The translations under genes and the position numbers were made by a program. A stretch of 38,943 nt of DNA from Desulfosarcinaceae bacterium. Lineage in GTDB: Bacteria > Desulfobacterota > Desulfobacteria > Desulfobacterales > Desulfosarcinaceae. The DNA is taken from contig JASJCL010000047.1 in the NCBI GenBank assembly GCA_030066015.1, positions 1 to 38,943 on the forward strand, given 5' to 3'. The notes beneath the pieces were generated by a model that was given only the letters and a program-made list of their open reading frames with translations, was not told the origin of the DNA and made no database searches. Position 1 is the first letter of the stretch, and the number at the start of each line of letters is the position of its first letter. Positions 5,964 to 31,729 of the stretch are shown piece after piece.

Positions 5964-7007
5964 CTAGCGTCTGCTGGCGTCGCTCATCTGCCGCAATTGA
6001 CGGGAGGTTCGGGCCAGTTCAATCAACAGCTGCTCCATCTCCTGTTGATAGGCCTGCGCGGGAAGGTCTGCCTTGCGGTGTCGCAATAGGAGTACGGATC
6101 GCTCCAGTTCTCGGATCTTCGCATTGAGCGTCAGTGCCGATCCTGCGTCACCGGGCGGCAAGGCTGCCGGTGCGGTGACGAGAGGATCGATATAGGCGAC
6201 CTGGGCGAGGCGCCCATCCGCCTGGCCGGGACCCGGGTCGAGGCTGAAGATACCGTCTCCGTTGTCTTCCAGCGCGGCATGTTCGGTAGGGATGCGATTC
6301 TGGTCGGCATACCATCCCTTGACCTTGGTGGCGGCAAAGTGAAACGCTTCCCATATGGAGACCCGCCGGTTCTTATCCCTATCTCCGGCATGGTCATCCA
6401 GCGCGGCGATGAAGTATTGGGCAAATATGGTATTGTATTTTTCGGCCCTGGACCGAGTGGCGGAAACCAGCACCCGCCCAGGTCCGATCAGGGCCTTGCA
6501 GAAGGGCAGACTTGAACTGGCAGCGTTTACGACGACGATATCCTGCGCGGAAAAGTGCCGGAGCATCACGGCGAATTCGCGACCGCTGATGTCCGGTCCG
6601 CTTAAAACGAATTTGGCGTCTGCCGCATCGCTGGTTCCATGACCGATGAGAAAGAAGAACAGCTGATCACCGGGGTGCAGCGCATCTCTGAGGGCCTCCA
6701 TCTTTTCATAAAGGATGTCCCGCCGGCTGGCGCCGGAGATTCTTCCATCCTCCGAATCGGTTGATCGATTCATCAAGAGGATAATATGGTCACGGCGGTA
6801 GCCGTAATCCTCGGTTAGAATTGTGTACAGCTGAAAACACCAGCGGCGGATTTGATCCCCATAGGCTTTTTCGGGGGACGCACCGGCCAGAATTACCATA
6901 TAGGTCCGCGTGGCGGGAGTGGGAAGAAAATAGTCCCGCGATTGCGCTGATGCCGCGACGGCAAAGAAAAGACAGATGCCCAGTACAATCGCTCGATGAG
7001 GTCTCAT
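5964..7007 (-). CDS. exported caspase/legumain-fold (C13-like) protein lacking the expected Cys
   Basis: The ATG at 7007 overlaps the TGA of the preceding vWA gene by four bases, giving 347 residues. An N-terminal signal peptide (AVAASA at residues 16-21) predicts export. The fold is that of clan CD cysteine peptidases: a beta-strand plus IGHG with His123, and a following strand IVVVNAASSS at about 157-166 where the nucleophilic Cys should stand. There is none; the nearest Cys is 170. The HG dyad half is kept, so the protein looks like a pseudo-protease or uses another residue. An EF-hand-like acidic segment (LEDNGDGIF) and a C-terminal helical region (about 290-347) follow. It is the last gene of the MoxR operon, so it probably works in or on the same periplasmic complex. 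Confidence 0.78.
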   Translation of the reverse strand: MRPHRAIVLGICLFFAVAASAQSRDYFLPTPATRTYMVILAGASPEKAYGDQIRRWCFQLYTILTEDYGYRRDHIILLMNRSTDSEDGRISGASRRDILYEKMEALRDALHPGDQLFFFLIGHGTSDAADAKFVLSGPDISGREFAVMLRHFSAQDIVVVNAASSSLPFCKALIGPGRVLVSATRSRAEKYNTIFAQYFIAALDDHAGDRDKNRRVSIWEAFHFAATKVKGWYADQNRIPTEHAALEDNGDGIFSLDPGPGQADGRLAQVAYIDPLVTAPAALPPGDAGSALTLNAKIRELERSVLLLRHRKADLPAQAYQQEMEQLLIELARTSRQLRQMSDASRR

Positions 7008-9328
7008 GCAAGCCCCCCGCGCCTTCGCAGCAGCCATTCAAGACCGAAACAGGTGAGCAAGAGCAAAAAGACCAGGGGAATGTCCCACACCTCCACCTGG
7101 ACGTTCAGCGTGTCCATTTTCCGCGTGGATTTCAGCCGTTCGAAGAGGTTTTCAGCAGTCGCGGGACGGTAGTAGTGACCGCCGCCGGCAGCGGCGATTT
7201 GGGCCAGCAACGCCTGGTTCAGCCGCGTGTCCCGCATCTCCACTACGGCGTCTGACACCAGAAAACTCCGCGTCGCCAGAGGGGCCGGCGTCGCCGTCTG
7301 CGATGGCGCTATCTCCAGGTGGTAAATCCCTGGTGTTGGGGCGGTGAATTCGGCGATAAATTCACCGGGCCGGGCGATATCCGCAGACATCGGGAGGTCT
7401 GCTATGGCCTCGTCGGGATCGGTGACTTTCAGCCAGGCAACTGTTTGGGGTACCGGCCGATGGGCCTCATCGTAGATCCGGGCCCGGATGGTCACCCTGT
7501 CGCCGCTACTGATGTGACGGGGCTTGACAAAGATAGCCACCGGCGCCGGTGTATCCGCCGTCAGCCAACGCAGCATCTGCCGCCAGAATCTTTCGTGAGA
7601 GGTGTCTTCGTGTGGTTTGAGCATCTGCCAACGCCAGGTCGTGGCGGTCATGACCGCCATGGTTCTGCCACGGCCATAGCGCTGGTGGGCCAAAACCGGT
7701 AATACATGCCCCTGGTTTGTGAGTGCCGGGTGAACCATCAGCACGGTAGCACCCGGCTTGGCGCGGCCGGTGACATTGATACCCTGAAGCACCGGCATCT
7801 CTTTCCAGAGCTGTCGATTGACCGTGTCCTCAACATCCAGACGCAGCATCGTGGACCGCCAGCCTTCATCCGTCAGGCGCGGCGCAAACAATCGGCGGGT
7901 AGGATGATCTCCCGTTCGGGTCTCGCTGCGCAGGGCCGGTGGCAGATCATTGGTGTGCACCAACGCCACTGGAAGAAGATCTTCGACGGGGGTCCCGATA
8001 TACCCGGTATCAAACGCCGTAGACCCGCCCAGCATGAGGAAGCCGCCGCCACGGTGGGAGACGAACGCATGGGTCAACGCCAACTGATCCTCCGTAAAAA
8101 AATCTGGCGAAACGTCACCAAAGATGACGGCGTCGAAGGCGAAAAGCGCTGCTTCAGTATCCGGATAGCCGTCGGCTAGCTCCAGGGGCGACTCGATATT
8201 CTGGCGCAGGAATTTTTGGGGCCCGGTCATTAGATAGGTTTTCAGTCGGATGGCCCTATCGTTTTCCACGGCACGGCGAAGAAATTTATATTCGTTGCGC
8301 GGGTGCCCTTCGATATAGAGGATGTTCGCCCTTTTGGTCGCTTTTTCAATGAGAAATGGCAGCCGGTTGTTGGCCGTGTTTATCTCATCCTGCTGCGCTG
8401 CAATGCGGGCGGTGTAGACCCGAGGACCCTCGAGGTCGGGTATCAGGTGGATGCGGTGTTGTTGCGGGTGGCCGTCCGGCCCCAACACGATCTTTTTGGC
8501 CGCCACAACGCTATCCCCGCTTTCGATCAGAAGCTCTGTGTCAAGACCGGCATAGCCATGGCTCATCACCGTGATTTGCAGTTCGAACAGCGCCCCCTCC
8601 ACCGCCTTGCCATTGGTGGAGACCCGGCTGATGAGGATCTCTTTTTCCGCCTGATCGGAACCCACCCCAATGACGTGAACCGGAATATTGCGGGTGCTTA
8701 AGAGGCCGGCTGACAGCAGCGGATCCTCATCGGCATTGTCGGCACCGTCGGTCACCAGCACCAGGGCCGCCTGGGGCAGGCCCTGCAGGGTCTCGGAAAC
8801 CTCTTGCAACGCTTGGGACAATTGGGTTCTGGCACCTTGAAAGGTCACATCCGCCGGCCCTGTAATGGGGCGAACGCCGCTGTCGAAGGCGAATACACGT
8901 ACGGTGAACTCCTTGCGCAATCGATCGACCAGCCCCGCCTCGCCGTATAGCAGCTCCATCGCGACGTCGCCGCGCGACTGTGATTGGGCCATATCGGGGA
9001 GCGACATACTGCGCGAAGTATCGACCAGGATGTTCAGGTGGTTGTCCCGGGGGCTGGTTGACGAGGTGGTCAAAACCGGCTTCAAGAGGCAAAACAGCAG
9101 GAGCGCCACCACGGCGGTTCTCAGCAAGATCAAGATGGATTTGCGCCGGAAGGTGGTCTGTGCGGTGGTTCGCCGATAGAGAATCACGACGGCCATGACC
9201 AGCAGCGTCCCCCCACCCAGGACAGCCATCCATCCGAAGGGTGTTTGAAACGAAAGGGTCCCCCGAGCCCACGCATCAAGGGGGTGGCCAAGCAAAAAAG
9301 GCAGGATATCCGTGGGATGAATGTTCAC
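7004..9328 (-). CDS. vWA membrane protein with glutamine-amidotransferase-like domain
   Basis: The start is GTG at 9328 with AAGG eight bases upstream, giving 774 residues. There are two N-terminal membrane helices (about 32-50 and 66-83) and a von Willebrand A domain with an intact MIDAS: DTSRS at 103-107, Thr168 and VTDGADN with Asp194. A class I glutamine-amidotransferase-like domain (about 335-455) follows with SHRGGGFLMLGGS but no catalytic Cys in the usual elbow, then beta-rich domains and a final membrane helix near 752-766. Most of the chain should face the periplasm. This is the usual vWA-GATase component of MoxR operons in planctomycetes and deltaproteobacteria. It is translationally coupled to the downstream caspase-fold gene. 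Confidence 0.87.
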   Translation of the reverse strand: MNIHPTDILPFLLGHPLDAWARGTLSFQTPFGWMAVLGGGTLLVMAVVILYRRTTAQTTFRRKSILILLRTAVVALLLFCLLKPVLTTSSTSPRDNHLNILVDTSRSMSLPDMAQSQSRGDVAMELLYGEAGLVDRLRKEFTVRVFAFDSGVRPITGPADVTFQGARTQLSQALQEVSETLQGLPQAALVLVTDGADNADEDPLLSAGLLSTRNIPVHVIGVGSDQAEKEILISRVSTNGKAVEGALFELQITVMSHGYAGLDTELLIESGDSVVAAKKIVLGPDGHPQQHRIHLIPDLEGPRVYTARIAAQQDEINTANNRLPFLIEKATKRANILYIEGHPRNEYKFLRRAVENDRAIRLKTYLMTGPQKFLRQNIESPLELADGYPDTEAALFAFDAVIFGDVSPDFFTEDQLALTHAFVSHRGGGFLMLGGSTAFDTGYIGTPVEDLLPVALVHTNDLPPALRSETRTGDHPTRRLFAPRLTDEGWRSTMLRLDVEDTVNRQLWKEMPVLQGINVTGRAKPGATVLMVHPALTNQGHVLPVLAHQRYGRGRTMAVMTATTWRWQMLKPHEDTSHERFWRQMLRWLTADTPAPVAIFVKPRHISSGDRVTIRARIYDEAHRPVPQTVAWLKVTDPDEAIADLPMSADIARPGEFIAEFTAPTPGIYHLEIAPSQTATPAPLATRSFLVSDAVVEMRDTRLNQALLAQIAAAGGGHYYRPATAENLFERLKSTRKMDTLNVQVEVWDIPLVFLLLLTCFGLEWLLRRRGGLA

Positions 9329-25036: not shown

Positions 25037-25615
25037 ATGAGATTACTTCTCCTATCCAGTACGTCCGGATTTCTTTCCTACCTATCGATTTCGTTGCCGC
25101 ATTGGCTGAGCCCGTGGTTCAAGGTTTCTGACGATTCGCTTTTCGTGCTTCCCGGCGTGCTGTTCGGCCTGTTCATCCTCGTGCCCCTGGTTGAATCCAA
25201 AGAACACCGGCTGCTGCGACGCATTGGACTGCTGCTGTTCAGCATCTTTGCCTGGTACGTGGCCGTTTCGATGGGTTTCCAGGCGTTACCGCTGATCCGG
25301 CAAACCCCCATCCTCTCCTGCGGCATATCGGGCGTGATCGGTGTGTTGTTGCTGGCCCTTACAAGCCGCTATCTCGTCCCGGTCAAATTGGCGCAATCTT
25401 CGATTCTGATCGCCGCCCTGCTGGGATTTCTCGGTGGCGCGATCATCGGCTCGGCATTCAAATTGCCCAGAGCCAGTCTGGCCAGCGAGGTGCTCTATCT
25501 ACTTGGGTTTTTGTTCTGGCATTGCAGTGTCGCACATGCACTCTTCGCGGAAGGACGGCCATTTACCCGATTTGGCAAACCCGCCAGCGTTGGCCAAGCC
25601 CCCTCTGCTGGATAA
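25037..25615 (+). CDS. small multi-pass membrane protein, 192 aa
   Basis: There is no recognised family. Five or so hydrophobic stretches are visible: residues about 5-25, 37-52, 62-80, 93-108 and 120-138, plus one near 150-170. Short basic loops between them (SKEHRLLRRIG) suggest a polytopic inner-membrane protein. The ATG at 25037 has a modest GAGATG-like RBS. It follows the SRPBCC-like gene by 79 bases and could be cotranscribed with it. Its function is unknown. Confidence 0.65.
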   Translation: MRLLLLSSTSGFLSYLSISLPHWLSPWFKVSDDSLFVLPGVLFGLFILVPLVESKEHRLLRRIGLLLFSIFAWYVAVSMGFQALPLIRQTPILSCGISGVIGVLLLALTSRYLVPVKLAQSSILIAALLGFLGGAIIGSAFKLPRASLASEVLYLLGFLFWHCSVAHALFAEGRPFTRFGKPASVGQAPSAG

Positions 25616-25896
25616 AAAAATCGTCTCACCCAACACTCCGTCACTTCCCCCCCATCCTATCGGAATAGAAGGCGCCATTGATGGCGTTGCGCCCGCCTGA
25701 GATATCGACTGCGTTCAATCTCCTAAATCCCCCCCGACTCCGGAACCCAATGCCCTCTGCCCAATTTTGTCCGCAGGCGAAACGCACCGCATCGCCCAGC
25801 ATCTGGTGGCGGCGCGATCGAAAATCGGCGTTTCTTCGGGAGATGTGGCTGACACGCGCCTTCAAGGCCCTCTTCGTCGCGGAGCGCCGCTTCCGG

Positions 25897-26168
25897 GATG
25901 AGGCCTCACGACAGATGCCCGATGAGGACTCTCGGCAGATGCCCTGATGAGGGCTCACGGTAGCTGCCCCGATGAGGGCTCACGGCAGATGCCCGACGAG
26001 GACTCTCGGCAGATGCCCATGAGGCCTCACGACAGATGCCCCGGTGAGGACTCACGGCAGATGCCCCGGTGAGGGCTCACGGCAGATGCACTGGTGAGGG
26101 CTCACGGCAGATGCGCTGGTGAGGGCTCACGGCAGATGCCCCGGTGAGGGCACACGGAAGATGTCCCA
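25897..26168. repeat. tandem array: 11 palindromic units of 24-25 bp
   Basis: Units begin at 25897, 25921, 25946, 25971, 25995, 26019, 26044, 26069, 26094, 26119 and 26144. The best unit is gtgagggctcac followed by ggcagatgccccg. The first 12 bases are a small inverted repeat (GTGAG-GG-CTCAC). Several units change on both sides so that pairing is kept: CGAG...CTCG in the fifth, TGAGGCCTCA in the first and sixth. Unit length is not a multiple of three, so it does not code for a repeat protein. No spacer diversity exists, which argues against CRISPR. Confidence 0.9.
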
Positions 26169-26234: not shown

Positions 26235-26328
26235 GTGATCTCAAAAACATACGGCGGTTGATGCGGTCTCATTTTCAATTGAAGCGCCCCAGGTGATCGG
26301 CGTCATCGGTCCTTCTGGCGCCGGGTGA
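26235..26328 (+). pseudogene. relic of an ABC-transporter ATPase N-terminus
   Basis: One frame reads VISKTYGG up to 26258. Shifting by one base, the next frame reads VSFSIEAPQVIGVIGPSGAG and then a TGA at 26326-26328, exactly where the Walker A Lys-Ser/Thr should follow. Together they reproduce the beginning of an ABC ATPase (KxYGG-VxAV-SFxI...GPSGAGKS), most like the branched-chain amino-acid LivG type. No further ATPase motif follows. It is a short decayed fragment, with an internal frameshift and a stop in the P-loop. Confidence 0.6.
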
Positions 26329-26489: not shown

Positions 26490-27218
26490 TCACTCCAGCG
26501 TCGGTAGTTTTGGCGCCGCCTGGCCTTTCTGAACGAAGGACCCTATGAAGGCGCCCAAGGTGAGTTTTGCGAGTTCGAGAAACTCCTTCTCGAAGAAGGA
26601 AAGCGCCGCGAAGATGATGGTGAGCAATGCGGTTGCCAGCGGTAATCCAGCGAAACCGATTTTTTGAAAGGTCCCGGTGAATCCACTCAAGCTGCTGAGA
26701 ACGACATAGGTTCCGATCGCCTTTTCGTCGCCTTTCTGAATTAGCGGGGCCAGTAGTTCATAATCTTGCGGTGGAATGATAATGGGGACGGTCTGTCCGG
26801 CCGCACCGACCAGTTTGACCCCCAGAGCACCCAGTATGATGGCGCCGATGACGATCAAAATCGCGTACCCATAGTTTTGCAGGGTCCACACCACGACGTT
26901 CTGATCCACTGCGGGCGCCTCAACACGGCCCGTTTTCATAAACATCCAGACCAGTACGAACAGCAGCGCGACGGTCCCCGTCAACAGGAAGTATCCGCTC
27001 CCGGCCATAAATTTGTTGATGAAGGGCCGTTCCTGATGTGACGGATCCCTTGGCGCAACGCCTGCGGGCGGCGTCCCACCTCCCGGCGTCGGCGAAGTGC
27101 CAGCCGCATGGGGCGACGCACTGGCTGGTGCACCACCGCCGCCAGCGGCCGACCCGCTGGCAGATGATCCGCCCCCTGAAGGGGAGGCCTGGTTTGTCGG
27201 ATTGGATGTATCCATCAT
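26490..27218 (-). CDS. membrane protein with Ser/Gly/Pro/Ala-rich N-terminal tail
   Basis: Two ATGs (27218, 27215) share the GGAGAG site upstream; the second has the better spacing. The first 65 residues of about 241 are low-complexity Ser, Gly, Ala and Pro. They are followed by hydrophobic segments near residues 73-93, 115-137 and about 195-215, with a short QKGDEKAIGTYVVL loop region between. The tail could be a flexible cytoplasmic or periplasmic linker. No family is recognised. It is not clearly in an operon with the 27453 gene (234 bases apart), although both are on the minus strand. Confidence 0.7.
   Translation of the reverse strand: MMDTSNPTNQASPSGGGSSASGSAAGGGGAPASASPHAAGTSPTPGGGTPPAGVAPRDPSHQERPFINKFMAGSGYFLLTGTVALLFVLVWMFMKTGRVEAPAVDQNVVVWTLQNYGYAILIVIGAIILGALGVKLVGAAGQTVPIIIPPQDYELLAPLIQKGDEKAIGTYVVLSSLSGFTGTFQKIGFAGLPLATALLTIIFAALSFFEKEFLELAKLTLGAFIGSFVQKGQAAPKLPTLE

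Positions 27219-29020: not shown

Positions 29021-31729
<2,709 letters not shown>

Follow-up and report, generated by a model that had tools for sequence, protein, structure and literature searches.

A Desulfosarcinaceae tandem array as a member of a genome-private minisatellite family with a palindromic core

A 38,943-nucleotide stretch of Desulfosarcinaceae DNA (contig JASJCL010000047.1; hereafter the window) carries, at positions 25897-26167 of its forward strand, a tandem array of eleven short units with a small inverted repeat in each. The array raises the question of what keeps a palindrome in place through so many copies: a fold, a symmetric protein site, or nothing more than slippage. 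An initial annotation of this DNA took the differences between units to be compensating, and thus a sign of selection on the fold or on a protein site. We find that the array is real, that compensating changes are absent from it, and that it is a member of a minisatellite family with a palindromic core, private to this genome; the genome set searched contains no other genome of its genus, g1. As for what made the family, our leading reading, to which we would give slightly less than an even chance, is that the arrays are built on the near-palindrome GAGGNCTC (often TGAGGNCTCA), that the arms of this word are recognised by something, and that the arrays have grown by local duplication.

Tandem Repeats Finder (TRF), run on the window, reports one array at 25897-26167 with a period of 25, 11.0 copies, 85% matches and a score of 339. 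The units can be followed by their GAGG anchors at 25900, 25924, 25949, 25974, 25998, 26021, 26046, 26071, 26096, 26121 and 26146, with spacings of 24, 25, 25, 24, 23, 25, 25, 25, 25 and 25. Both confirm the eleven contiguous units of the initial annotation, at lengths of 23-25 bp and with one TGAGGNCTCA-type core in each, and its inverted repeat is found as well, in the form TGAG-NN-CTCA. Among the eleven units there are seven distinct rows. The core of unit 1 (25899-25908, +) is TGAGGCCTCA, a perfect 10-bp palindrome, and that of unit 6 (26020-26029) is identical; in these two units the central base alone has changed and the arms are intact. This central base is G in six units, A in three and C in two, and is enough on its own to make the palindrome perfect or imperfect. 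The base preceding the core is A or G and pairs with C in 5 of the 11 units. The last unit (unit 11, 26145-26167, +) is decayed, with the core TGAGGGCACA. The array was described as not CRISPR-like (clustered regularly interspaced short palindromic repeats), and rightly so: a CRISPR locus also has a repeated unit with a partly palindromic part, whereas here the units are contiguous, the filler is near-constant within the array in place of unique spacers, and the core is only 10 bp long.

The compensating changes did not hold up. Over the eleven units, not one of the five in-register pairs, and not one of the four pairs in the shifted register (CGAG..CTCG), has changed on both sides, and these counts contradict selection on a fold by compensating changes for the window array. 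The variants are all one-sided: T2->C in unit 5, A11->T in units 2 and 5, and T9->A in unit 11. The CGAG..CTCG that had been read as compensation is the core of unit 5 (CGAGGACTCT; 25997-26006, +), in which two one-sided changes, T2->C and A11->T, produce a two-base shift of register; A11->T, in unit 2 as in unit 5, disrupts the outer in-register pair.

The search for the unit in related genomes, which had been proposed as a check, finds the window array once in its own genome and in none of 59 relatives; a pattern of two units, allowing three mismatches at most, is absent from all 290 other genomes of the order. The window unit had no match in phages and plasmids by distant blastn, nor in viral contigs by exact pattern. 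A second type of unit, that of the array C15, was found in the same genome, at up to three mismatches, only at C15 itself. The window unit is private to this genome, but its core is found at more than one locus. With TRF, 20 stretches of the genome were surveyed along with the window, and then 40 further stretches; other arrays built on the core of the window array came to light.

Counted over the whole genome, TGAGGNCTCA has 42 forward and 30 reverse matches (control, 3 and 5), which come to 52 distinct places in 27 clusters: 34 places lie in nine clusters of two or more, and 18 stand alone, half of these (9/18) inside called genes. Pairs of TGAGGNCTCA 2-22 bp apart give 18 + 8 matches on the two strands, with none for the control and none in the 29 other genomes of the family. 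At 1-25 bp apart there are 19 + 9, again against none for the control, and the 388 other genomes of the order hold one match, in G105; the control itself matched 1 + 1 times among these genomes, in G040. The inner word GAGGNCTC, paired at 2-28 bp, gives 47 + 14 strand matches at 18 loci (control, 1 + 3), and in the 29 other family genomes it is seen at six places, one each in six genomes. The 18 loci are C15, C19, C20, C31, C36 (twice), C42, C71, C81, C86, C101, C108, C109, C116 (the window), C118, C119 and C135 (twice); ten of them have three or more copies of GAGGNCTC and eight have two exact copies. Since the motif was chosen after the window, C15, C19 and C20 had been seen in the sampled DNA, these four loci are not independent; the other 14 are. 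What is observed is therefore a core that stands in tandem at 18 loci, in and between genes, with a filler and a period of its own at each locus and unshared flanks, and that is near-absent from the relatives.

It is worth pointing out that this type of array is not unique to the genome. Triple TGAGNNCTCA with gaps of 1-25 bp was found beyond the order in at least 114 stretches of other bacteria and in 25 viral stretches. These arrays are sporadic, with at most four stretches per genome among 80 of the at least 114, and have other centres and fillers. What looks unusual is the presence of about eighteen loci in one genome, a comparison measured against its own order and family only. Two further observations came out of these searches. 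In several Actinomycetes and viral contigs (L150, L189, L214, L241, L272, L276) there is a recurrent element with three to four TGAGNNCTCA-like words in the style of TGAGGACTCAGTGAGTCCTCACGGAG, the first two words being 11 bp apart; it differs from the arrays studied here and suggests a conserved group of protein sites. In an Acidobacteria metagenome-assembled genome (isolate NC_groundwater_304; L165, L168, L176, L195), TGAGTCCTCAGTGCTGAG-type repeats occupy four stretches or more, a second case of a genome in which a related word forms several arrays.

When the arrays are sliced on the core, each unit reads as TGAGG-N-CTCA followed by 1-15 bp of filler, which is near-constant within most arrays and different between them. 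The periods are 11 (C19), 12 (C36b, C108), 15 (C12, C71, C119), 16 (C36a, C86a, C135), 16-18 (C15), 18 (C20) and 23-25 (the window). In a blastn comparison of 19 loci with up to 600 bp of flank, the matches listed at E < 0.001 all fall on the arrays, and the best flank match among those listed has an E of 0.007. Genes were called approximately, by a simple program based on codon usage; on these calls the tandem loci lie inside six genes, at the end of a gene, and between genes. The spacings inside the six genes are 15 (C31), 18 (C101), 12 (C108), 15 (C109), 21 (C118) and 12 (second C135 locus), all divisible by three. Seven of the ten host or neighbour proteins scanned have a family, namely LolB-like (below the cut-off), ScpB, cyclase/AAA, phospholipase A1, CODH/ACS, amino-acid-type binding protein and MGMT. 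These functions are unrelated, which speaks against a regulon.

A few places in the genome have features of their own. At L138:4990-5060 an in-frame 12-bp core array encodes a TETSTEAS-type repeat, the C-terminal tail of ScpB, and at L327:5689-5790 GAGGTCTCGTTCC occurs six times at 15-bp spacing within a called open reading frame (ORF) of 745 codons. The seven-unit, 15-bp array at L142:4921-5030 opens with the TGA stop codon of the gene with the weak LolB match. A perfect 28-bp palindrome centred on the core (GGCCTCTGATGAGGCCTCATCAGAGGCC) lies at L131:5265-5292, just before a called gene start.

The arms of the core vary less than the rest of the unit. This was seen in eight arrays with at least three alignable units (C15, C19, C20, C36a, C108, C119, C135 and the window), pooled; C12, C31, C36b, C71 and C86a were left out of the pool as too short or decayed, and C109 and the second C86 locus turned up at a later stage. 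Of the cells in the arms, 14 of 423 varied (3.3%), against 39 of 346 in the filler (11.3%) and 11 of 47 at the central base (23.4%). Arm variation as low as this was reached in none of 20,000 column shuffles and in one of 20,000 rotations. Taken singly, C119 gives p 0.011; its seven units have invariant arms and a variable centre and filler.

Two tests not steered by the motif gave different answers. In the first, all 256 four-base arms were compared over 76 stretches (1.30 Mb) by the number of loci with at least two arm-NN-arm' copies no more than 25 bp apart. TGAG, that is TGAGNNCTCA, came out on top with three array loci; two arms had two, ten had one and 243 had none. Only 11 copies of TGAGNNCTCA exist in these stretches, nine of them in arrays, while GGCCNNGGCC (arm GGCC) has 301 copies and two array loci. 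The second test allowed any gapped 8-mer in 110 TRF arrays: GAGGNCTC was found in three and other motifs reached four, while in shuffled units the best motif averaged 5.4 arrays and GAGGNCTC itself 0.23. The 256-arm test thus supports the motif and the gapped 8-mer test does not; it is the whole-genome comparison that carries the claim.

On the reading that we favour, an array would begin at a copy of the core, whether already in place or newly arrived. This copy and a piece of the adjoining DNA would be duplicated in tandem, through slippage or misrepair at a site of pausing or breakage, and the filler would then be host DNA duplicated alongside the core, which is why it would differ by locus. 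Units that keep the arms would continue to be amplified or bound, with centre and filler left to drift. The arms might be recognised by an enzyme that nicks, pauses or breaks the DNA, or by a dimeric DNA-binding protein that stalls the fork; the free centre fits an amplifying enzyme and a binding protein alike. Given tandem loci inside genes and no regulon, a mutational process is somewhat favoured, and a host function of the window array is unnecessary for the explanation. In one form of the idea, GAGGNCTC would be recognised by an enzyme of this species that triggers tandem duplication on the spot, and the short word would in this way seed minisatellites at the places of its occurrence. Such a sequence-directed "seed and expand" mechanism would be unlike transposition or plain slippage. 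We consider this form unlikely.

Several results weigh against the reading just given, the gapped 8-mer test among them. The arm effect is uneven: the window array taken alone gives p 0.087, C15 varies in the arm and not in the filler, and C36a and C108 show no clear difference. Units were cut at 7/9 core matches, which biases the comparison towards conserved arms. Some of the two-copy loci, C42, C101 and C118 above all, may be chance. TGAGGNCTCA is alone at 18 of its 52 places, so the core does not always seed an array. C15 and C36a match at 72-76% over 104-115 bp, and C135 matches C20, C15 and C86a as well, so that descent from a common array is possible. A filter on reading frame cannot be argued strongly from the six in-gene spacings, because those of 7 of the 12 other loci are also divisible by three. 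The orientation of the arrays relative to GC skew (6/12) shows no preference for a G-rich strand. Finally, no recognising factor was found in this analysis.

The strongest competitor, which we nevertheless judge somewhat unlikely, is that the arrays are clusters of binding sites for a dimeric repressor or nucleoid protein and are kept by selection on binding, the dimer reading the arms and leaving the centre free. The symmetry of the core and the pooled pattern of conserved arms with free centre and filler are what such a protein would leave. SlmA, a TetR-like protein, offers a comparison at the level of the word itself. In PMC3116907 its E. coli site is given as a 12-bp palindrome, GTGAGTACTCAC, and the core resembles it in the symmetric word GTGAG..CTCAC. 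The resemblance is partial: the copies here are in tandem arrays, the centre is GN and not TA, and the outer G..C is dispensable, being present in 5 of the 11 window units. Against binding sites there are also the 11-25 bp spacings, which keep no helical phase, the placing of tandem loci within called genes (six of them), at the end of one gene and among unrelated genes, the occurrence of half the single cores within called genes, and the near-absence of core pairs from the relatives. The suggestion of a symmetric protein site in the initial annotation therefore stands in part: it gains from the tandem core at 17 other loci and from the lower variation of the pooled arms, and loses in that the window array by itself gives a weak signal.

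An alternative that we regard as improbable is that the cores are a very small mobile sequence resembling the repetitive extragenic palindromic (REP) sequences, moved by a Y1 transposase of the REP-associated tyrosine transposase (RAYT) type, with clusters that then grow together with flanking DNA. The genome does have three Y1_Tnp proteins above the family cut-off, and the 18 lone cores are as expected of dispersed elements. There is also a general likeness to REPs, to bacterial interspersed mosaic elements (BIMEs) and to REP doublets forming hairpins (REPINs), all of them short palindromic repeats with many copies between genes; their clusters may have elements tandemly repeated along with flanking DNA (PMC3733652, PMC3116915), and ordered REPIN clusters are described as tandem repeats that include flanking sequence (PMC3116915). 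However, the published REPs (PMC3733652) are palindromes of 20-40 bp, and most have GTAG or CGTC as a terminal motif, whereas the core here is 10 bp, is arranged head to tail, and is bordered by locus-specific sequence with no constant tag. GAGGNCTC was found at none of the three Y1 loci (2.3-3.3 kb examined, up to 1.5 kb on each side), and the single cores within called genes (9/18) speak against this origin too.

If ordinary slippage were at work, the minisatellites would be unrelated, the palindromic word would be common to them by chance, and nothing would recognise the motif. Bacterial minisatellites, or variable-number tandem repeats (VNTRs), do have short contiguous units with base and indel variation and lie in and between genes, and the window array has the contiguous head-to-tail units of about 10-60 bp that define them (period 25, 11.0 copies by TRF). 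The genome is rich in short arrays, with 17 in 1.02 Mb against 4 in 0.40, 1 in 0.14 and 2 in 0.20 Mb in three relatives, and the any-motif test with gapped 8-mers is unexceptional. Ordinary minisatellites need not share a word; here the near-palindromic core recurs at 18 loci with other fillers. The whole-genome counts against controls and relatives, along with the palindrome-only test, make coincidence hard to accept, and we think this explanation very unlikely.

The fold was examined directly. As RNA, the window array folds better than its dinucleotide shuffles (z -2.50 and -2.37). Such shuffles wipe out the repetition, and a test against column-permuted copies is preferred for that reason; in these the unit columns are permuted alike across all units, so that the repetition is retained. 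By this measure the window array is ordinary (z -0.31 for the + strand, -0.69 for the - strand). Of five other arrays put through the same test, three (C15, C20 and C135) have a better fold than their permuted copies; C36a is ordinary and C119 less clearly so. No Rfam family reached its gathering score anywhere in the window. Selection on an RNA or DNA fold of the window array through compensating changes, for all that three of the six arrays beat their permuted copies, is accordingly unsupported and highly improbable, with no double-sided change and an ordinary fold.

In the window, the array sits in about 875 bp between two converging ORFs, one of 192 aa on the left (25037-25615, +) and one of 242 aa on the right (26490-27218, -). 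Neither has a family at E 0.001, the weak Pfam matches being at E about 0.05, and neither has a relative among the 29 other family genomes; for the right one, no relative was confirmed in a wider search of genome contigs either. To the right of the array (26260-26328, +) there is a 22-residue remnant with similarity to ABC ATPases at their Walker A end (Pfam ABC_tran; 16.9 bits, where the cut-off is 25; E 0.0098). The stretch had been called gene-less and decaying: the array does lie between ORFs, and decay is plausible yet thinly supported, given that the remnant is below the cut-off. Between 25500 and 26600 no promoter-like site was found, and there is one terminator-like site, at 25673-25686 to the left of the array, against an average of 0.8 such sites in shuffles.

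Two other places in the window carry similar words. A second array by TRF (29022-29093, +; period 22, 3.3 copies) has the core GCGAGG-G-YCTCGC (GCGAGGGTCTCGC) and lies 3 kb from the main array, where a gene with a peroxidase domain (29084-31393, -) has its 3' end; it is a possible relative of the core family, with a core one base longer. A lone copy of the core, TGAGGTCTCA, is at 6997-7006 (+), and the TGA of its - strand is the stop codon of the ORF at 7004-9328.

A text search of the literature for TGAGGCCTCA gave 13 papers, all of them with eukaryotic titles, and among the papers listed in other literature searches none describes such a palindrome-cored family. With the family in hand, one odd array becomes a genome-wide pattern with a specific word, and the origin of bacterial minisatellites becomes testable. 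Should the word be a protein site, it would point to a protein that amplifies or organises DNA; should slippage alone be at work, a strong preference for one sequence would have been shown nonetheless.
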